Position numbers and translations under genes: made by a program. 64,000 nt of DNA from Defluviicoccus sp. GTDB taxonomy: Bacteria; Pseudomonadota; Alphaproteobacteria; MPNO01. The stretch lies in the NCBI GenBank assembly GCA_022823775.1, contig JAJEHI010000195.1, positions 1-64,000 of the forward strand, in the 5' to 3' direction. Position 1 is the stretch's first letter. The number at the start of each line of letters is the position of its first letter. Positions 53,270 to 62,303 of this stretch are shown here, piece after piece. Below the pieces are notes generated by a model. It saw nothing but the letters and a program-made list of their open reading frames with translations, was not told the origin of the DNA and did not search any database.

Positions 53270-53836
53270 ATGTCGACCTACGTCCTCGTCCACGGCGCCT
53301 GGCATTCGGGCGATCTGCTGGAAGCGACCGCCGCTCCGATCCGCGCCGAGGGCCACGAGGTCCACTGCCCCACCCTCGCCGGAAACCGGCCGGGCGACGC
53401 CAAGACGGCGGGCCTCGCCGACGCCATCCAGTCGATCGTCGACTATCTCGAGGAAAACGACCTCAACGACGTGCTCCTGATGGGGCACTCATACGGCGGA
53501 ATGGTGATCACCGGCGTCGCGGACAAGGCAGCGGACCGCATCCGCCGGCTGATCTACTGGAACGCCTTCGTGCCGAACGACGGCGAATCGCTGAACGACA
53601 TGGTGCCGCCTCACTACGTCCACATGTTCGACGAGATGCACGCCGAGATCGGCGACGGCTCGGTGGCCATGCCCTACCCGATCTGGCGCGAGGCCTTCAT
53701 GAACGACGCGGATGCCGACCTGTCGCGGTCCGCCTACGACAAGCTGAACCCCCACCCCTACGCCACCTTTGCCGACAAGATTTCGCTCTCGACGAACCCG
53801 GCGGAGATGGAAGTGGCGAAGTCCTACATCAACTGA
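53270..53836 (+). pseudogene. 5' part of an alpha/beta-hydrolase gene split by the integrated element
   Basis: This 188-residue fragment starts at ATG 53,270 after a ggaagga site. It has the esterase fold start YVLVHGAWHSGDL and the nucleophile elbow MGHSYGG (Ser74), then stops at TGA just after EVAKSYIN. It lacks the catalytic His. The missing 53 residues (CTEDTSLPHS onward, with the GGHEVCF His) are at 62,144-62,303. Joining 53,835 to 62,144 restores a 241-residue hydrolase in frame. Whether the truncated form keeps any activity is doubtful. Confidence 0.9.
53828..53835 (+). other. attL core of the integrated element
   Basis: The 8-bp sequence atcaactg occurs here and at 62,136-62,143, exactly where the two halves of the hydrolase separate. 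It encodes the Ile-Asn of the interrupted protein plus two bases of the next codon. Confidence 0.88.
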
Positions 53837-53849
53837 GACTTGGTTTCTT

Positions 53850-53866
53850 GGGACTTGAATGGGACA
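53850..53866 (+). promoter_or_regulatory. Candidate integrase arm-type site, left end
   Basis: The 17-mer gggacttgaatgggaca lies 14 bp inside the attL core. Its reverse complement, with one mismatch, occurs 20 bp inside attR (62,099-62,115). Each copy holds two tgggac units spaced about 11 bp, as expected for arm-binding sites. Confidence 0.72.
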
Positions 53867-54412
53867 CGGGGCCGGGCCAGTAGGCCCCACACCGCTTGAC
53901 TTTCCCGCCAGCCGCGCCCTCGCCCATAGAGCGCGCTACAGGGGCGAAGGCGCTTTGCGGGTAGCTCTACGCCCCGCCGCTCGCCTCGGCCATGGGCGGC
54001 GCTCTATGGCAGTCGCGCGACTTTTTTGTTGTTGCTCTCTTCCGCTTCCCTATGATTGACGTTGGTCGATGGTGGACGGCCCCGATATGAGACCGTCCCG
54101 CGTCACGCTTCGGCACTGACTTACGGCTTTCGGGCCACCATCGACCGCGATGCGCCTTGCGGTCGGCGCGGCGAAATAGATCGCAACGCCCTTGAAAGCG
54201 GATCGAGGGCGACGCGCCCGGAAACGGCTTACACGCCAGCGCCCGGCATCCCAAAGCAACGACGCTGCATGACGCGGCGTTACAACCTTGTTGCGGGAGA
54301 CCGGGCGACCATGCTGCATCCCAAATCACTTTTGACGGCGTTCGCGCTGGCCTTGGCCTTGGTCGGCATGACCGCCCCTCCCGTTGCCCAACCCATGACG
54401 GGAGAGACTGTC
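53867..54412. other. Non-coding left end of the element, rich in hairpins
   Basis: No credible gene is seen in this stretch. Inverted repeats are ggggcc/ggcccc (53,868-53,888), ccatagagcgc/gcgctctatgg (53,924-54,009), and ggtcgatggtgg/ccaccatcgacc (54,064-54,146). The palindrome gtcgcgcgac is followed by six T (54,012-54,027), like a rho-independent stop. It could hold a structured RNA, a packaging site or the capsid promoter. An in-frame upstream extension of the capsid gene (from ATG 54,311) is described with that gene. Confidence 0.6.
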
Positions 54413-55660
54413 TTGAACAAACGACTTCAACTCGAAAGCCAGTTGCGAAAGCTGGCGAAGGAACGCCGGACGCTTGGCGACAGGCTCGGCGAAATTTCGC
54501 TCATGTCCGACGAAGAGCGGACGGACGAAATCCAGGCGGAGGCGCGCAAGGCGACCGAACAGCTTGTCGGCATCGGCCCGAAGATGGACGAGGTCGAGGC
54601 GGCGCTCGACGCCATGCCGCAAGACGTGGCGAAGGGCGATCCGGCAACCGACGAATTCGCCACGCTCAAGGCGCAGGCGTCGCGCCATGCGCTCGGAGCA
54701 ATCGCGGCGATGATGGCGGACGGCAAAAGCTCGCATAGCGACGGGCCGCTTGCCGAGTTCCAAGAGCATCACAAGCTCGCGGCGAACGTCTACCCGGTCG
54801 AATTCCTGTCCGCCCCTGCGCGCGACGCCAAGAGCATCGAAGCCGCCGCAGGTCTGACGAGCGCGCCAACGAATGTCGGCACCGGCGAAGCGCCCATCGA
54901 AACGCCGGTGTTCGCGGATGGTGACGCGGCTTTCATGGGCGTCGTGCAGCCAATCGTACCGGGCGGCGATCAAGTCTACCCGACCATTACCACGCGCCCG
55001 GACGTTGGCGGGCCGCATTCCGACGACACCGACGTTGCCGAAACGCAACTCACAATCGGAAGCGAATTGCTCGCGCCGACGCGGTTGCAGGCGAGCGTCA
55101 CCGGCCTTCGCACGCAAGAGCTACGTTTGCCGGCGTTCGAGCCTGCCATTCGCGAAACGCTGCGCGGCGCGCTTTCCGAGGCGTTCGACGACCAGTGCAT
55201 CGCCGAGCTTTTGACCGTGGCGCAAGTCGCGGCGGGCGCGGTTGAGACGTTCGCGACCGGCATCAAGCGCCTTGTGTTCGACAACGTCGAAGGGCGATAC
55301 GCGCGGCAGGAAAGCGATTTGCGCGTGCTGCTCGGCGCTTCGACGATGCAATTCCTCGCGAGCCTGTACCGCACCAACAATTCCGACGACAGCTTGCTTG
55401 ACGCCATCCGCAACCGCGCGTCAGGCGTTCGCGTTTCGGCGCATACGCCAGCCGTCGCGAACAACAAGCAAGACGCGCTAATCGCGCTCGGCGTCGGGCG
55501 ACGCGCGGCGGTATGCCCGATTTGGCAAGGCGTCGAAATCACGGTGGATCGCGTTACCGGCGCGGGCAAGGGGCAGGTCGAAATCTTCGGGGCGATGTTC
55601 GCGGCATTCAGCATCGCCGACGCCTCGGCCTTCCGCCGCGTCGAAACGCAACACGCCTGA
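54413..55660 (+). CDS. HK97-family phage major capsid protein
   Basis: A 415-residue protein. A coiled-coil N-terminal region (KRLQLESQLRKLAKERRTLGD and following, to about residue 75) resembles the scaffolding delta domain removed by the prohead protease. The HK97 fold follows, ending with SAHTPAVANNKQDALIALGVGRRAAVCPIWQGVEITVD split near residues 340-375, a strong family mark. The TTG start at 54,413 follows cgggagaga at good distance. An alternative ATG at 54,311 would add 34 residues looking like a signal peptide, which is odd for a capsid protein. Function confidence is high. Confidence 0.87.
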   Translation: MNKRLQLESQLRKLAKERRTLGDRLGEISLMSDEERTDEIQAEARKATEQLVGIGPKMDEVEAALDAMPQDVAKGDPATDEFATLKAQASRHALGAIAAMMADGKSSHSDGPLAEFQEHHKLAANVYPVEFLSAPARDAKSIEAAAGLTSAPTNVGTGEAPIETPVFADGDAAFMGVVQPIVPGGDQVYPTITTRPDVGGPHSDDTDVAETQLTIGSELLAPTRLQASVTGLRTQELRLPAFEPAIRETLRGALSEAFDDQCIAELLTVAQVAAGAVETFATGIKRLVFDNVEGRYARQESDLRVLLGASTMQFLASLYRTNNSDDSLLDAIRNRASGVRVSAHTPAVANNKQDALIALGVGRRAAVCPIWQGVEITVDRVTGAGKGQVEIFGAMFAAFSIADASAFRRVETQHA

Positions 55661-55826
55661 TCGGACAGCGCCGCTCCAAGGGCGGTTTCCGTTAGCCCGA
55701 ACCGCCCTTGCGCGAGGCGGACAGGTAAACGGCGAAAGCGCATTCCATGCGCGCGATGCACGGCATTTGCGGCGCGTGTCGGTCGCCCGAGCCTGTCCGC
55801 CCTTTCGCCATTCGGAGATATGAAAC
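55661..55826 (+). promoter_or_regulatory. Structured intergenic leader between capsid and protease genes
   Basis: This 166-bp gap contains a 10-bp stem aagggcggtt/aaccgccctt (55,678-55,709) right after the capsid stop. A second stem ggcggacagg/cctgtccgcc (55,716-55,801) encloses a small hairpin gcgcat-tcc-atgcgc. The first may limit read-through; the second may form a leader for the protease message. Confidence 0.55.
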
Positions 55827-56324
55827 ATGCAACAACTCAAATGCAGCTTCGCCGCTGACATTGCGCTTGATGGGCGCAAACTGTCCGGCGTCGCGCTTCC
55901 CTTCAACAAGGTCGGCCATCCGAGCGACGGCATACCGACCATCGTTCGCGCCGGAGCGTTCGCGCCCATCGGCGACGTGCTCCTAAACGTCCAGCATGAC
56001 GCCGGGCGCGTCATCGCCCGGACGACTGGCGGCACCATGCAGCTATCCGAGACCGACGAAGCGATCCGCCTTGAGGCGACGTTGCCCGAGACGCGCGAAG
56101 CGGACGACACAATCGCGCTCATCAAGGCGGGCGTGTTGGCCGGGCTTTCGATTGAGGCGTCGGCGCTTCGCGCGGTCACGCGCAAGGGCGTTCGCACGGT
56201 GGAGCGCGGCACCTTGACCGGGATAGCCGTTGTCGCGCGTCCGGGGTTTCAGGAAACGAGCGTCAAAGTCGCCGCGCAAAGCGGCACCGGGCGCGCGATC
56301 AATCCGCCATGGTGGCTGGCATGA
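55827..56324 (+). CDS. HK97-family prohead protease
   Basis: A 165-residue protease-fold protein (Caudovirales prohead protease, herpesvirus assemblin-like). Marks are LDGRKLSGVALPFNKVG near residue 15, FAPIGDVLLNVQHDAGRVIARTTGGTMQLSE split near 45-70 with the probable catalytic His in VQHDAGR, and the catalytic Ser region IKAGVLAGLSIEA near 108. It would cut the capsid delta domain during head maturation. Unusually it lies after the capsid gene. The next gene starts within its stop codon (ATGA). Confidence 0.86.
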   Translation: MQQLKCSFAADIALDGRKLSGVALPFNKVGHPSDGIPTIVRAGAFAPIGDVLLNVQHDAGRVIARTTGGTMQLSETDEAIRLEATLPETREADDTIALIKAGVLAGLSIEASALRAVTRKGVRTVERGTLTGIAVVARPGFQETSVKVAAQSGTGRAINPPWWLA

Positions 56325-57274
56325 GCAACGTCATACCCTTGACCGTTCGCGAAGGCGTGCCGGGCGCTTCGCCAGCGTCATACGCGAATGCTCAAGTCGC
56401 CTTCATTCGCGCCGCCGCAAATCTCTACGCGAGCGCGCTTGCCGTCGCCTCGCCAGGCGAAACGCTCGACGCCTCGACGTGCCACGCCATCGGCAAGGCG
56501 CTTGCGACGCGCGGATGGTTTACCGGCTTGATCGAGATCGACGCGGACGGCTCGCCAATCGTGACGCCGATGGACGCTTGGCTAAATCGCGGGCGGTGGA
56601 TCGGCACGACGCGGCCTTTGAATGGAGACACCGGCCTTTCCGTTTCCGCGCCGGACGACGCGGTTTTGAGCGTGCGATATGCCGATGGCGAAGCGCCGAT
56701 TGCGCGGATCAATCCGCTTGCCGACCTTGCCGCGAAGCTCGACGCGGCGATGATCGAGGAGGCAGAAACGCCAGTGCTTCGCGTCCTCGGGCTCGATGCG
56801 ACCGGCATAGCGTCCGGGCCGGATCAACGCGGCGACATTACGACCGGCGTCATGGACGCGGGCAAAGACGGATTGCGCGTTGTAACCGTGCCGGCGATGG
56901 TCGAGCAATCGCGCATAGGCAAGATCGGCCCGGAACCGGAGCGCGGCGCGGTGGAGCTACGAAAGCAAGTGCGCGAGGATGTTGAAGCCGCGTACGGCGT
57001 CCAAGGGCTTTTGTCCGATAGCGGCTCGACCGAAACGCATGGCTATTGGCGCGTCGCGACGGTGCGCACCTTCACGCCTCTTGCCATGATGATCGAGCGC
57101 GAGGCGGCGCGCAAACTGGATAGCGCGCCAGTGTTCCGGCGCGAGGCTTGGATCGCCGCGCCTCATAGCGAAGTCGCAAGGGCGACGGCACAACGCGCGA
57201 CGGCGGTGCAAAGGCTCGTCGCGGCGGGCGTCGACGTAGAGCGCGCGATTGAGATTGCGGGCTTGGCAACATGA
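56321..57274 (+). CDS. Short HK97-type portal-like protein
   Basis: A 317-residue protein. The best family hint is the C-terminal half: VELRKQVREDVEAAYGVQGLLSDSGSTE split, then WRVATVRTFTPLAMMIEREAARKLDS, and ATAQRATAVQRLVAAGVDVERAIEIAGL. This follows the order of portal proteins (pocket, wing helix, then the terminal KAG-x-s-x-eAl-aGL-like end). The N-terminal region (ALAVASPGETLD, WLNRGRWIG) is weaker. Typical portals are 380-450 residues, so this one is reduced. ATGA overlaps join it to the protease upstream and the next gene downstream. Confidence 0.68.
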   Translation: MSNVIPLTVREGVPGASPASYANAQVAFIRAAANLYASALAVASPGETLDASTCHAIGKALATRGWFTGLIEIDADGSPIVTPMDAWLNRGRWIGTTRPLNGDTGLSVSAPDDAVLSVRYADGEAPIARINPLADLAAKLDAAMIEEAETPVLRVLGLDATGIASGPDQRGDITTGVMDAGKDGLRVVTVPAMVEQSRIGKIGPEPERGAVELRKQVREDVEAAYGVQGLLSDSGSTETHGYWRVATVRTFTPLAMMIEREAARKLDSAPVFRREAWIAAPHSEVARATAQRATAVQRLVAAGVDVERAIEIAGLAT

Positions 57275-57711
57275 ATGCGATTGAGACGGAAATCGCGCGG
57301 ACATTGCGCGACGGCGGTGACGGCCATGCGCTCGCGTTGTTCCACGCCTTCGCCGCGACGCTTCGGGAGACTGGCAATCCGCGTTTGGCGTTTCACGCCG
57401 CGCGCATCGTCGGCAAGCGCATGAGCGCGCTCGACGCATTTCCCAACGTCGCGGCGATCATGGCGGGCGACGACACGCCAGCGCAATTGATCCTCGCGCC
57501 GTTGATGTTGCCGGGCGCGGCGGACGTGGAGACCAATGTTTACGCTCATGCGGCATGGGCGCGACATGAAGGCGACGCGGACATTGCCGAGGCGGTGGCA
57601 ACGGCGATTGCGGCCATGCGGCGCTTTGAGCGCGAGATCGACGCGCCGCGCCAACCGCCAGCGCCGACGATGCGGCAACAAGTCCAAGACGCTTTACAGG
57701 GAGACGATTGA
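57271..57711 (+). CDS. Unknown element protein, 146 residues
   Basis: A mostly helical, alanine-rich protein of 146 residues with no family I recognise. Segments include ALALFHAFAATLRETGNPRLAFHAARIVGKRM near the start (split for length) and a C-terminal tail rich in Pro and Gln (DAPRQPPAPTMRQQVQDA). It overlaps the portal-like gene by ATGA and precedes another small gene by one base, so it is made as part of the head operon. A small terminase-like or head accessory role is possible but not shown. Confidence 0.65.
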   Translation: MNAIETEIARTLRDGGDGHALALFHAFAATLRETGNPRLAFHAARIVGKRMSALDAFPNVAAIMAGDDTPAQLILAPLMLPGAADVETNVYAHAAWARHEGDADIAEAVATAIAAMRRFEREIDAPRQPPAPTMRQQVQDALQGDD

Positions 57712-57712
57712 C

Positions 57713-57961
57713 ATGGCGACCGGAAGCAAGACGCCCAAACGCTGGTACACGAGCGCGAAGGTGCGCGCGATGGTGCTGCAATTGGTCGAGGAAACCGGCC
57801 TATCGCCGAATGACGTGATCGAGGGGTCGCTCGCCATGGCGATCAACGCCAATGCCCGCACCGGCCAGCCGCTCTCGGCACTTGGCGGAAAGCTGAATGA
57901 CGCCGTGGCGCAATTGCGGCGGCGCACCGAACGCGAGGGGCGGGCGCATGACGGAGCTTGA
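57713..57961 (+). CDS. Unknown small element protein, 82 residues
   Basis: A basic 82-residue protein. The middle, MVLQLVEETGLSPNDVIEGSLAMAI, looks like a helix-turn-helix or ribbon-helix-helix-sized helical pair, and the end is arginine-rich (QLRRRTEREGR). It might bind DNA. The start at 57,713 follows a cagggaga site. The next gene overlaps it by 14 bases. Confidence 0.6.
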   Translation: MATGSKTPKRWYTSAKVRAMVLQLVEETGLSPNDVIEGSLAMAINANARTGQPLSALGGKLNDAVAQLRRRTEREGRAHDGA

Positions 57962-58241
57962 AATCGCCTTGTCGTCGCTCACTGGCGACGTGCCGACGAC
58001 CTTCGCCGGGCTCGACGCGCGGATGCGCCAGTGCCGCAAGGCATGGTCCGACGAGGCGCAACGCTTGGAGGATGACGCCGGGCCGGGCGCGTTGGCGGTT
58101 GCCTGGCGCGAGCTTGTCGTCCTGACCGAAAAGGCACTCGGCGACATGAAGTCGGCGAACCGCCAAGGCGGATACACGCTGGCGAGGATGAAATGGGCTT
58201 ACTGGCGGCGCGTCGCGATCCGCAGGCTCGAAGTCATTTGA
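57948..58241 (+). CDS. Unknown small element protein, 97 residues
   Basis: A 97-residue, mostly helical protein (MTELEIALSSLTGDVPTTF at the start; LARMKWAYWRRVAIRRLEVI at the basic end). I do not recognise a family. Its overlap with the gene before it and shared direction place it in the head operon. The basic aromatic C-terminus could contact DNA or membrane. Confidence 0.58.
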   Translation: MTELEIALSSLTGDVPTTFAGLDARMRQCRKAWSDEAQRLEDDAGPGALAVAWRELVVLTEKALGDMKSANRQGGYTLARMKWAYWRRVAIRRLEVI

Positions 58242-58493
58242 AACCGCACGACAGTCGCCCGGAGCGCGCGCGTGAGTGGCCATGCCCGTTTCGCGGGTAT
58301 GGCTATGCCCGGAATAGGGACCATGCGCCAGCGACCACGACAGGCGCTTTTCGGCGAAGGCGCACTAACCCCGGTGTCGTAATATGTTACGCCGAGAAAA
58401 TTGAATTCCGCCATGCGATGTGGGCGAGGCAAGTCGGCGGCGGGTCCCATCCCAACGCGGCGCGCGAGCGGCGACAAAGCGAAAGGCAAAGCG
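58242..58493. other. Intergenic gap inside the element
   Basis: No convincing gene is seen in this 252-bp gap. It contains a short dyad, cgtaa-tatg-ttacg (58,378-58,391), in a locally AT-richer patch (gaaaattgaattc follows), which could be an operator or promoter for the genes downstream. Confidence 0.45.
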
Positions 58494-58739
58494 ATGACAA
58501 CTGACGGCTTCACGCCAACCGAGATCGACGGCTACGCGAGCGTCGGTGTCGGCATGGCGCTTGACAAGGACGGCAAGCCAATCGTCGCGCTTGTCATACT
58601 GACGGAAGACGGGCGCAAATACGTCGCGCCGTTGGACTTGGAACAAGCGGTCGGTTTCGTAGGATCGTTTCGCGATGCGGCAGATCGTATGTTGATGGAA
58701 GCGATGAAGCCGGACGAATTTCCGGGCGGCAGGCAATGA
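58494..58739 (+). CDS. Unknown small element protein, 81 residues
   Basis: An 81-residue acidic protein, starting MTTDGFTPTEIDGYASVGVG, with a two-strand then helix pattern (PIVALVILTEDGRKYVAPLDLEQAVGFVGSF split). The ATG at 58,494 follows a gcgaaaggcaaagcg stretch. No family recognised. It sits just before the connector gene and may be a head or tail-joining accessory protein. Confidence 0.55.
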   Translation: MTTDGFTPTEIDGYASVGVGMALDKDGKPIVALVILTEDGRKYVAPLDLEQAVGFVGSFRDAADRMLMEAMKPDEFPGGRQ

Positions 58740-58754
58740 CGCAGGCGCGTAGCG

Positions 58755-59372
58755 ATGGCTCGCAACGCTCTTGAGATAGTGCCGATCATCGAGGCGCGTA
58801 GCGCCATGCGGCTTGTCGGCGATGACGCGCAACACGATGCGTTGATCGCGAGGTACATAGTCGGCGCGGTGGAATGGGTCGAGCGCCTTTGCCGCATCGG
58901 CATTGTCGACACTCCGCTTAGCGAAACGGTCGGCGCGCCGGCTGGCGACGAGCCGCTTGTCATCCGCCATAGGTCGCACGCCATCCGCGACGTGTCCGCC
59001 CGCCCGAGCGACGAGCCGCTGGCGACGCCTATGGCTTTGAGCCTCGCGCCCGCGACGGAAGCCGGCAAGGGCTTTTCGCTAATCGCCATGCCGGCGGGCG
59101 GTTGGCCGAATAGCTCCATGCGCGTCGACTACACGCTCACAACGCCCGCCGACGCCGTGCCAGGCGCGATCCGTACCGCGATCATCCTGCTATGCCGCGA
59201 CATGTACGACATGCGCGAGGAAGTGGGCGGATCGGGCGGCGTCGGCAGCGGCAGGCCATGGGCGGTATATGCGATGATCGCGCCTTACCGCGACAATCGC
59301 TTGACGCTGGAAGACGCCGGTTGGCCGACGCCAGCGACGCTCGACGCGTTTCCCTTGACGCCGGAAGGGTAG
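58755..59372 (+). CDS. Head-tail connector protein (gp6-like/phiE125 gp8-like)
   Basis: A 205-residue protein resembling phage head-tail connectors that form a ring under the portal. The start IEARSAMRLVGDDAQHDALIARYIVGAVEWVERL split, the central beta part, and the typical final helix PGAIRTAIILLCRDMYDMREEVG followed by YAMIAPYRDNRL near residue 180 match this family. It should join heads to tails. No tail genes are present, so tails would have to come from another phage. Confidence 0.78.
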   Translation: MARNALEIVPIIEARSAMRLVGDDAQHDALIARYIVGAVEWVERLCRIGIVDTPLSETVGAPAGDEPLVIRHRSHAIRDVSARPSDEPLATPMALSLAPATEAGKGFSLIAMPAGGWPNSSMRVDYTLTTPADAVPGAIRTAIILLCRDMYDMREEVGGSGGVGSGRPWAVYAMIAPYRDNRLTLEDAGWPTPATLDAFPLTPEG

Positions 59373-59413
59373 AGCTATGGCGTCGCCCCTCTTTTCGCGC
59401 GTTGGCGTAGGCG

Positions 59414-59505
59414 TCGAGCATCACATCAGGAACCCTCCTATTCCTCTTTTTTAAAACTACTACTTTTTTAGGTAAAAGGTATGCTAAGTGATGTTTGATG
59501 CTCGA
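59414..59505. promoter_or_regulatory. AT-rich inverted repeat region, possible promoter/operator
   Basis: Arms tcgagcatca (59,414-59,423) and tgatgctcga (59,496-59,505) flank the most AT-rich stretch of the element (cctcttttttaaaactact onward). A TATGCT box is a plausible -10 for the gene at 59,540. Confidence 0.5.
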
Positions 59506-59539
59506 TGCTTAGAGCCAGGACCAACGGAGCGCCGTCGCG

Positions 59540-60037
59540 ATGGATGACATAGAGCGCCACGCCAAAGCCGCCATACGCGAATATCTCGGGCGATGCGGCG
59601 CGCGGGAGCGTTGGGAGTTTGTCGGACGCTTCACGCCGACCAAACCGCATAGCGCGGAAGGCTGGACGCTGCTCGGCCAAATTCGCTTGCGCCGCAAAGG
59701 TCATTTCGCGCGCTTGATCGCGCTCGACGCATGGCTACATGATACGGACGGTTCGTTGCGTTGGGGTTGCGTAGTGCGGGCCGACCATCCGAACAAAGCC
59801 AAGCCGCATTTTGTCAATCGCCACCCGCGCGGGATCGTTAGCGGGCGCGGCGCGGTGTCGCCGGTCGAGGCATTTCACGCGGCGATCCGATGGGCGAGGC
59901 AAGCCGCGTTGGACGGGCACGATTGGGAGGACGACTTGCCAAAGCGGTTGCCTGACGTGGCCGGGCCGACAAGCGCGCCGCCAGTCGCGCAATTGTCGCC
60001 CGACGAATTGCCCTTGTTCGGAGCAAGCGACGAATGA
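59540..60037 (+). CDS. Unknown element protein, 165 residues
   Basis: A 165-residue protein with a compact centre rich in aromatic and basic residues (WEFVGRFTPTKPHSAEGWTLLGQIRL split; FHAAIRWARQAALDGHDWEDDL). The proline-rich acidic tail ends LPLFGASDE. I do not recognise a family. It follows an AT-rich promoter-like region, so it may belong to a separate transcript, and a ribosome site (acggagc) precedes it. It could be a helper-interference or regulatory protein, which is speculation. Confidence 0.62.
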   Translation: MDDIERHAKAAIREYLGRCGARERWEFVGRFTPTKPHSAEGWTLLGQIRLRRKGHFARLIALDAWLHDTDGSLRWGCVVRADHPNKAKPHFVNRHPRGIVSGRGAVSPVEAFHAAIRWARQAALDGHDWEDDLPKRLPDVAGPTSAPPVAQLSPDELPLFGASDE

Positions 60038-60055
60038 CAGCCAAGGGAGATTGCT

Positions 60056-60316
60056 TTGACGCCGCTCGACGAAGGCTATGCGCTGGCGGCGCTCCATGCG
60101 ATAGAGGAATGCGCCATCATGCTCGATGCGCCGTTGCGCGCCGCGTGGATCGAACAAGCCCGCGCGGCGATGGCGCTCATGCGCGACGCGACGCGCGCCG
60201 TACAGGATGAATTGATCCACGACCTTGTTGTCCAAGTGCCAACGGACGACGCGCGCTACGAATGCGCGCGCGGGCTAATCGGCGCGGTCGTCCGGCATCT
60301 TGGCGGCGCGCTTTGA
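60056..60316 (+). CDS. Unknown small element protein, 86 residues
   Basis: An 86-residue, all-helical acidic protein (ALAALHAIEECAIMLDAPLR; AAMALMRDATRAVQDELIHDL). Start TTG at 60,056 is inferred from the aagggaga site six bases upstream. It follows the 165-residue gene by 18 bases. No family recognised. Confidence 0.55.
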   Translation: MTPLDEGYALAALHAIEECAIMLDAPLRAAWIEQARAAMALMRDATRAVQDELIHDLVVQVPTDDARYECARGLIGAVVRHLGGAL

Positions 60317-60330
60317 AACAACAGGGACGA

Positions 60331-60489
60331 ATGACAGAGGCGGAAAGGCAATATTGCCCGTCCGCCCCTCCGCTCACGGCAATTCTCGGCGACTTCGTTG
60401 CGCCTGGCCGTAGCCAAGTGCGACGAGATCGCCGAGAATTGCGCTTTAGCTTGTTGCGCTTGTCAGGAAATCCGCCCATTCGGCCATGA
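60331..60489 (+). CDS. Possible very small protein, 52 residues
   Basis: A 52-codon frame starting MTEAERQYCPSAPPL after an acaggga site. It overlaps the inverted repeat at 60,379-60,442 and the 3' end of the integrase gene. The second half is arginine-rich as expected for chance frames. It may not be real. Confidence 0.2.
   Translation: MTEAERQYCPSAPPLTAILGDFVAPGRSQVRRDRRELRFSLLRLSGNPPIRP
60379..60442. terminator. 14-bp inverted repeat between convergent element genes
   Basis: Perfect arms gcaattctcggcga (60,379-60,392) and tcgccgagaattgc (60,429-60,442) with a 36-base spacer, just past the 3' end of the integrase. It may be a two-way transcription stop or a protein-binding site. Confidence 0.5.
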
Positions 60490-62047
60490 TCGGCTTACGG
60501 CGCTCCAACGCGTCGCCTCGCAAGTAAGCTCGTTCCGTCGCGCTTCCTGGCGCATGGGCGATGCACAACTCGGCAAGGTGGTAGTCGTATTCTTGCGCGT
60601 CGCACCATTCCCGGAACGTCGAGCGTAATCCATGGACCGTTGTGCCCGGCGCAACGCGCTTAGCGACGCGCCACAATGGGCGTTGCGGTTGCGCGAGCTT
60701 CGCAATGCGAGGAAACACATAGTCGCCATCGCGCGCCGCTTCGCGCGCCTGCAATAGCGCAACGGCGGCATCGGACAATGGCACGCGATGGCGGACGCCC
60801 GCTTTCATACGCTCGGCAGGGATAGTCCAAACGCGCTTGCGCAAATCAAATTCAGACCATGCCGCAAGCGCGCATTCAATCGCGCGAACGCCAGTTAAGG
60901 CGAGCAATGCCAATGCGCATTCGTCTTCGTTCGACGTGTCGAGCTTGGCGTACATGTCCGGCGCGTCTTCATGGTCGAGCGACGCATAGTTGCCGCGCTC
61001 CGGCAATGCGGGTAGCCATGTCGTAAAGTCGCCGTCTGCCGGGTTAGTCTCGCAATGCCGCTTGTGCATCGCCCATTTGAACACGCGCGCCATATCGCTT
61101 CGGACTTTCAACGCAACGCGCTTGCCGTCGCGATGAAGCGGCGCTAACACAGTTTCAATATCGTTCCGCGTGATGCGGTCTATCTGTATCGGACCGAGAA
61201 TGCGCAACGCGTAATTGTCCAGTCGCGACATGACTTGCGCCCTATGACGCTCGTGGCATTTGAATAGCGGCACGGCTTCGGCGCACGCTTCGGCGAATGA
61301 CGGCGCGCTTGCAACTGGTGACGGATCATCCGCGCCGGGCGTTGGGCGTTCAAACGCTTCGACGCCTGGTCCGGTCGCGCAATCGCGCGCGGCGGTGGCG
61401 ACGCGCTCAATCCAGTCGCGCCGCGTGGCCGTGTCGGCGATCCGCACGGCGACCGCTTCAATCGTCTCGCGTTGCTCTTCCGGCGTCGCGCCGAGCATGT
61501 ACGGCCATGCGTCATTCGCCGCGACGATCCAGTCGTAGCCGGCAAGCGGATCGTTGAAGCTCGCGAGCGCCGTCATGCACGCGCCGGCATACGCCTCGCG
61601 AAACGCCGGGAATACGTCATCGCCAACGCGAGCGGCGGCACGCTCGACGGCGGCTTGCGCGGCGCTCGCGGCGGCTACCTTGATCGCCGTTTCGCGAACC
61701 TCGGCTTCCCGTGCGGCGGCTTGGGCCTTGGCGGCTTCGCGTGCCTGCCGTTCAGTCTCGGCGGCTTCAGTCTCGGCGGCTTCACGCTTGCGAGCGTCGG
61801 CCTTGGCGGCTTCGGCTTCGGCTTCGGCGGACCATGTAGCGGCTTGCTCGCGAGCTTCGACCAAAGTCATCTTGAGCGCCGGGCCGATGTTCCGCTCGCG
61901 ACGCCCGCCGCCCGCATGACCAATCCATTGAAACGAGCGCGACAGATTGCCGGACTTCGTGCGCCGGACCCGAAGTCGCAAGCCGTTGGCTCCGTCCGGG
62001 TAAGCGCCGGGCTCGGCGCTCGCGACGATTTCCGGGGTTAGCTTCAT
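60446..62047 (-). CDS. int: Tyrosine recombinase (phage/P4-type integrase) with an extended linker
   Basis: A 533-residue integrase. Residues 1-75 are the arm-binding DUF4102-like domain (LTPEIVASAEPGAYPDGANGLRLRVRRT split, ending NIGPALKMTLVEAREQA). Residues 75-250 form an unusual Ala/Glu-rich, probably coiled-coil insert. A SAM-like core-binding domain (about 250-345) and the catalytic domain follow. Catalytic residues are Arg388 (TGVRAIE), Lys near 415, His472 and Arg475 (TVHGLRSTF), His498 and Tyr508 (ERAYLRGD). It starts 89 bp from attR, the normal position for an integrase gene. Confidence 0.93.
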   Translation of the reverse strand: MKLTPEIVASAEPGAYPDGANGLRLRVRRTKSGNLSRSFQWIGHAGGGRRERNIGPALKMTLVEAREQAATWSAEAEAEAAKADARKREAAETEAAETERQAREAAKAQAAAREAEVRETAIKVAAASAAQAAVERAAARVGDDVFPAFREAYAGACMTALASFNDPLAGYDWIVAANDAWPYMLGATPEEQRETIEAVAVRIADTATRRDWIERVATAARDCATGPGVEAFERPTPGADDPSPVASAPSFAEACAEAVPLFKCHERHRAQVMSRLDNYALRILGPIQIDRITRNDIETVLAPLHRDGKRVALKVRSDMARVFKWAMHKRHCETNPADGDFTTWLPALPERGNYASLDHEDAPDMYAKLDTSNEDECALALLALTGVRAIECALAAWSEFDLRKRVWTIPAERMKAGVRHRVPLSDAAVALLQAREAARDGDYVFPRIAKLAQPQRPLWRVAKRVAPGTTVHGLRSTFREWCDAQEYDYHLAELCIAHAPGSATERAYLRGDALERRKPIMAEWADFLTSATS

Positions 62048-62098
62048 GGCTCAAATCCTCAATCCGGTTGCGATGGCAGGACAATACAGCAACCGCTA

Positions 62099-62115
62099 TG
62101 TCCCATGCAAGTCCC
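62099..62115 (-). promoter_or_regulatory. Candidate integrase arm-type site, right end
   Basis: tgtcccatgcaagtccc, the reverse complement of the left-end site at 53,850-53,866 except for one base. It lies between the integrase start and the attR core. Confidence 0.72.
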
Positions 62116-62135
62116 ATTCGATTAGTCGAGCCGCG

Positions 62136-62143
62136 ATCAACTG
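62136..62143 (+). other. attR core of the integrated element
   Basis: Second copy of atcaactg. Downstream of it the hydrolase reading frame resumes (Cys-Thr-Glu-Asp). Confidence 0.88.
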
Positions 62144-62303
62144 CACCGAGGACACGTCCCTGCCGCACAGCATGACCTGGCATCCGCGCCTGTCGGAAAA
62201 GCTCGGCCTGTTCCGGCTGATCCAGATCCCGGGCGGGCACGAGGTCTGCTTCACGGCGCCCGACCGTCTCGCCCAGGCGATCATGGACGCCGGACGCGAT
62301 TAA
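62144..62303 (+). pseudogene. 3' part of the split alpha/beta-hydrolase gene
   Basis: The last 53 codons of the interrupted hydrolase: CTEDTSLPHSMTWHPRLSEK, then LGLFRLIQIPGGHEVCFTAP with the expected catalytic His, to the TAA at 62,301-62,303. An open frame continues upstream into the element to an ATG at 62,046, but the added 32 residues come from attachment-site DNA and are unlikely to mean anything. It overlaps the convergent deaminase gene by four bases. Confidence 0.88.

Follow-up and report, generated by a model that had tools for sequence, protein, structure and literature searches.

A compact integrated element with its own head genes and no detectable terminase in Defluviicoccus sp.: a candidate capsid-forming phage satellite

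We analysed a window of 64,000 nucleotides from Defluviicoccus sp. (assembly GCA_022823775.1, contig JAJEHI010000195.1, positions 1 to 64,000 of the forward strand) and found in it an integrated element that is complete at both ends, has 8,308 bp and spans positions 53828 to 62143 (Table 1). It encodes a capsid, a prohead protease, a portal, a head-tail connector and an integrase, and no terminase that we could detect. We give an even chance to the explanation that it is a capsid-forming phage satellite, which would build its own procapsid and rely on a helper phage for the packaging motor as well as the tail.

The limits of the element in the first-pass annotation of this DNA (54413-60316) were too narrow, as the real span also includes a P4-type integrase gene. 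An 8-bp direct repeat, ATCAACTG, marks the two ends, and when the flanks are joined in silico they give a single open alpha/beta-hydrolase frame. Furthermore, two congeneric genomes, G389 and G386, have the hydrolase gene intact (88% identity from end to end) and carry ATCAACTG at the place of insertion. This is a discrete integrated element, satellite-like in having its own integrase and att sites, and the att repeats, the restored frame and the empty site in two congeners show that it is not one end of a large prophage. An 18-bp inverted repeat lies near both ends; judging from the sequence, its halves are possible arm sites of the integrase. The integrase itself is 32% identical to that of L002, an element in a metagenome-assembled genome (MAG) of Pseudomonadales that was reached by the capsid match.

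The capsid, protease, portal-like and connector genes named in the first-pass annotation are indeed present with intact frames, as seen from Pfam, PHROGs, the matches to relatives and the predicted portal fold. The capsid alone matches PF05065 with E = 1.3e-3, which falls short of the Pfam cut-off; against the capsids of L002 and of the small head-encoding genomes L006-L011 the E-values are 1e-14 to 1e-26. Its TTG start codon at 54413 has a Shine-Dalgarno-like GGGAGA upstream and agrees with the starts in the relatives; for these reasons we dropped a signal-peptide-like frame that begins upstream, at 54311. The AlphaFold model of the capsid (predicted local distance difference test, pLDDT, of 39) was too poor and was not used. 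In the alignment of the protease with its relatives one His and one Ser are conserved, and we take these to be the catalytic residues.

On its own, the portal has no direct family match in Pfam, PHROGs or NCBIfam. Two further relatives, L015 and L018, have portals that exceed the cut-off of the Pfam portal family PF04860, and a profile made from our portal and those of L002 and L006 matches them (hhalign probability 98.4%). The top PDB matches of its predicted fold are the portals of HK97 and others; at a pLDDT of 62 the model supports a statement at the level of the fold only. A profile search of the PDB with the portals matched nothing, though the fold search did. The frames of the capsid, protease, portal and connector are all open, with no frameshift or stop, where the length of a frame is weak evidence in GC-rich DNA (shuffled sequence gives runs of up to 417 codons).

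Searches of the element with Pfam, PHROGs and NCBIfam revealed none of the genes for terminase, HNH, primase, tails or lysis. When we compared the large terminase subunit (TerL), HNH and primase proteins of the relatives with the whole element by tblastn, the best E-value was about 0.1, and a TerL profile of the family had no match in the whole assembly. According to the gene coordinates, about 1.4 kb of the element is not taken up by assigned genes; it is split among several gaps of at most 577 nt, too little for a terminase gene of about 1.5 kb. We reject a hidden or remnant terminase, as neither tblastn nor the TerL profile showed one and the space is lacking. The earlier claim that terminase, tail, lysis and replication genes are missing holds in the profile searches and, for terminase and primase, also by tblastn. 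Of the modules that make up a tailed prophage, the one for the head is seen, and those for packaging, tail and lysis are not.

The relatives of the element are compact head elements of about 8-12 kb from Alphaproteobacteria, the one Pseudomonadales MAG and IMG/VR. Searches of the class and of plasmids gave L015 and, from Pseudorhodobacter turbinis (NZ_CP039965), L018; the L015 capsid in turn matched 26 contigs of 4-17 kb in IMG/VR, and the portal profile added four chromosomal copies (L082-L085). Common to the relatives is the gene order TerL-HNH-capsid-protease-(connector)-portal, and an integrase usually comes next. Several of them (L015, L018 and L082-L085) lie in assembled chromosomes, have an integrase and are flanked by host genes on either side. 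Going through the gene lists of the chromosomal copies, not all of which were scanned against tail families, we noticed no tail gene. We found no description of an element family with this gene order among the open-licence PubMed Central papers searched.

Some of the relatives have features of their own. L006 (G389 C237) and L007-L011 carry TerL, HNH, capsid, protease and portal genes, and no tail tube or lysis gene was noticed in them. They also encode a protein of 600-1000 amino acids (aa) with an apparent Sec signal peptide at its start, in several cases with many GDHVHP repeats. A 99-bp terminal repeat makes L010 a circle of 11,632 bp. In two alphaproteobacterial contigs, L071 (G288 C173) and L067 (G065 C149), a portal-like frame adjoins a connector related to that of our element; L071 also has two integrases.

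TerL is present in 36 of the 39 elements whose upstream side can be judged (L053, L059 and L073 are too short and were left out), and it is absent from our element, from L060 and from L074. A 123-bp terminal repeat in the 10,163 bp of L060 shows that it is circular and complete at 10,040 bp. Besides its head genes (capsid, protease, portal) and an integrase it carries a replication-initiator-like gene, HNH and two HEC-01-like genes; a terminase is absent. The HEC-01A/B-like genes (L060:2071-4030) are a candidate defence system, with a PADLOC E-value of 3.5e-38 for the ATPase. L074 has primase, capsid, protease, portal and integrase genes, again without a terminase; the frame of its capsid is broken in two, perhaps through a sequencing error or through decay. 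In the capsid tree, L060, L074 and the fragment L073 form a supported clade distant from our element, and the supported branches force two changes in the presence of the terminase. Read from this tree, the terminase was lost at least twice, in our element and in the L060/L074 lineage. The branch of our element is very long (5.1 changes per site), so that the exact position of the element is unsure. The existence of a second lineage without terminase supports the satellite explanation indirectly. Furthermore, intact frames and ends, the lack of any remnant and the same gap in the circular L060 argue for a functional element, without being a proof.

If the element is a capsid-forming satellite, infection or induction of a helper would lead to its excision, and its head genes would assemble a prohead. 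The helper terminase would then dock onto the satellite portal and package the satellite DNA, and helper tails would attach at the satellite connector. Known capsid-forming satellites have a terminase of their own. In this case the terminase of the helper would have to act on a foreign portal and on foreign DNA, so that the compatibility of motor and portal can be tested directly. A more general proposal is that there is a proteobacterial class of satellites that build their own heads including the portal, have repeatedly given up the motor and borrow terminase and tail from a helper; we put it forward tentatively, as its chance seems to us a little short of even. In any case, the search has revealed a widespread family of compact head elements, the chromosomal copies of which are mostly from Alphaproteobacteria, and the terminase is missing in at least two lineages of it.

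Two further loci of the same assembly should be mentioned. At L027 (G000 C85:1-9528) lies a P22-like head module that has a TerL of its own besides portal and capsid-like genes; it may be a helper or an unrelated prophage. L064 (G000 C62:2-2549), at the edge of its contig, holds another portal of the family, the second in this genome; after it come two small genes and then an integrase by a gltD-like gene. Since this is another site, the genome has been host to two such elements, each in its own place.

Several results weigh against a working satellite. Neither family searches nor tblastn found a replication gene (primase or rep), no family match to a small terminase subunit (TerS) was found, and we recognised no TerS-like specificity factor among the six orphan genes. 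L027 is no more than a helper candidate that shows no link to the element, and its contig C85 could be misbinned. The first-pass annotation had looked to intact syntenic copies at other sites for support; none with this gene set, and no close copy, turned up in the sampled genomes of the class, order and phylum, in IMG/VR, or among phages and plasmids, where the collection scans with single proteins require near-exact matches of 8 residues and thus miss distant copies. With no close relative, selection on the element is not measurable. Finally, the alignment shows that the capsid is without the G-x-G loop conserved in the other members of the family, and capsid and portal depart from 53% and 58% of the family-conserved positions, the highest values of all members.

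The long branch, the lost conserved positions, the absent loop and the lack of close copies in the sampled collections favour the strongest rival. It says that the element derives from a capsid satellite with a terminase and is now an inactive remnant, which has lost its left rep/primase-TerL-HNH block (about 3-4 kb) between attL and the capsid gene and is otherwise drifting. In relatives of the same polarity, exactly this block occupies the stretch from the left end to the capsid gene. On the other hand, the genes are free of frameshifts and stops, the protease keeps its His and Ser, the ends and inverted repeats are intact, and tblastn found no remnant of TerL or HNH. In addition, the six extra genes specific to the element look coding, and the second lineage again has members without terminase, of which one is circular. 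We consider a remnant a serious possibility, if a somewhat improbable one. The first-pass annotation had offered a decayed prophage as the alternative; given that most family members carry TerL, the loss of one block in this copy has a fair chance. The divergence speaks for it and the intact frames and ends speak against it.

Potentially, the head genes could be kept for another use, as a gene-transfer-agent-like particle, a protein shell or a domesticated function of the host, since they come without motor or tail and without a known helper. We find this very unlikely: the element is an accessory insertion with its own integrase, absent at the sites of two congeners, and not a conserved host locus, and a protein shell would hardly need a portal and a connector. 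That HK97-type head genes are present might suggest one end of an ordinary large prophage, an idea with next to no chance given that both att ends lie 8.3 kb apart within one gene, that empty sites contradict it and that the relatives are likewise compact with no tails detected.

Table 1. Features of the element and its insertion site (positions in the window; GC3-GC2, GC content at third minus second codon positions).
Feature	Position	Strand	Evidence or remark
alpha/beta-hydrolase gene, 5' part (insertion target)	53270..53835	+	one frame when joined to 62136-62303
attL core, 8-bp direct repeat ATCAACTG	53828..53835		single copy at empty sites L019, L020
577-nt leader, no detectable gene or remnant	53836..54412		tblastn, relatives' TerL/HNH/primase
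18-bp inverted repeat, left half	53849..53866		inverted match to 62099-62116, one mismatch
HK97-type major capsid protein, N-terminal helical (delta-like) domain, TTG start	54413..55660	+	
hairpin just 3' of capsid gene	55676..55712	+	12-bp stem, predicted RNA
S78 prohead protease	55827..56324	+	PF04586 E=1.4e-15; phrog_2263 8e-30
short HK97-type portal protein	56309..57274	+	BLASTP E=1e-9 to L002 portal
146-aa orphan	57271..57711	+	GC3-GC2 0.25; overlaps portal stop
82-aa orphan, possibly ribbon-helix-helix (by eye)	57713..57961	+	GC3-GC2 0.27
97-aa orphan, helical by eye	57948..58241	+	GC3-GC2 0.32
81-aa orphan	58494..58739	+	GC3-GC2 0.27
gp6-like head-tail connector (adaptor)	58755..59372	+	phrog_442 1.9e-11; TIGR01560 above cut-off
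165-aa orphan	59540..60037	+	GC3-GC2 0.19
86-aa orphan	60056..60316	+	GC3-GC2 0.30
P4-type tyrosine integrase, 533 aa	60446..62047	-	PF00589 1.9e-13, PF22022 1.8e-12
18-bp inverted repeat, right half	62099..62116		pairs with 53849-53866
attR core, 8-bp direct repeat ATCAACTG	62136..62143		matches attL core
alpha/beta-hydrolase gene, 3' part	62136..62303	+	continues frame of 53270-53835

The six orphans show a coding-like GC3 bias, and they have no significant relatives in Pfam, PHROGs, NCBIfam, phages or plasmids. A role of the 97-aa orphan in packaging or regulation is speculative. A match of the 82-aa orphan to Cas2 in PADLOC (E=0.002) is weak, and we regard it as chance. The leader corresponds to the side that holds rep/primase-TerL-HNH in the relatives. 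Strong RNA hairpins are predicted at 55655-55830, the intergenic region of capsid and protease (z=-2.3); they are possibly a transcription attenuator.

How does the element compare with known systems? By definition, capsid-forming phage-inducible chromosomal islands (cf-PICIs) carry HNH and both subunits of the terminase (PMC10690885). They share with our element the integrated state, the lack of tail genes, and an integrase and head genes (capsid, protease, portal, connector) of their own. Unlike it, they encode TerS, TerL and HNH, whereas here TerL and HNH are undetectable and a TerS is not recognised. As terminase and HNH are part of the definition, our element is not a cf-PICI, though it would work similarly. 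The Streptomyces satellites MulchRoom and MiniFlayer also have their own capsid genes, and MulchRoom has a lysogeny module, but both encode the two terminase subunits and have linear genomes with direct terminal repeats (PMC10690885).

Among the relatives described above, the head-element family (L015, L018, L082-L085 and the IMG/VR contigs) and L002 share with our element homologous capsid, protease and portal genes in that order, an integrase downstream of the portal, compactness and no tail genes seen, and differ from it by TerL and HNH upstream of the capsid and often by a primase or rep. The L060/L074/L073 lineage is similar in size (about 10 kb) and, in L060 and L074, in having capsid, protease, portal and integrase without terminase. 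However, it forms a separate capsid clade and has a standard long HK97 portal, a rep or primase gene and no connector that we could see, while our element has one.

The islands of the phiRv1/phiRv2 type have been called candidate PICIs (PMC10654092), and with an integrase and a phage capsid gene in a phage-like region our element falls under the definition used there. By their published description, these islands resemble it as integrated elements of about 10 kb with integrase, prohead protease and capsid. They are mycobacterial, however, and our element adds a portal and a connector. For one of them, phiBN42_1, the assigned genes are integrase, excisionase, primase (which our element does not have), protease and capsid; a terminase is not among them (PMC3986857), so that the terminase-less condition is not unprecedented. 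With such mycobacterial islands already described (PMC3986857, PMC10654092), the minimal new type proposed in the first-pass annotation was overstated. What appears to be new is the terminase-less form that bears both portal and connector, together with its repeated origin.

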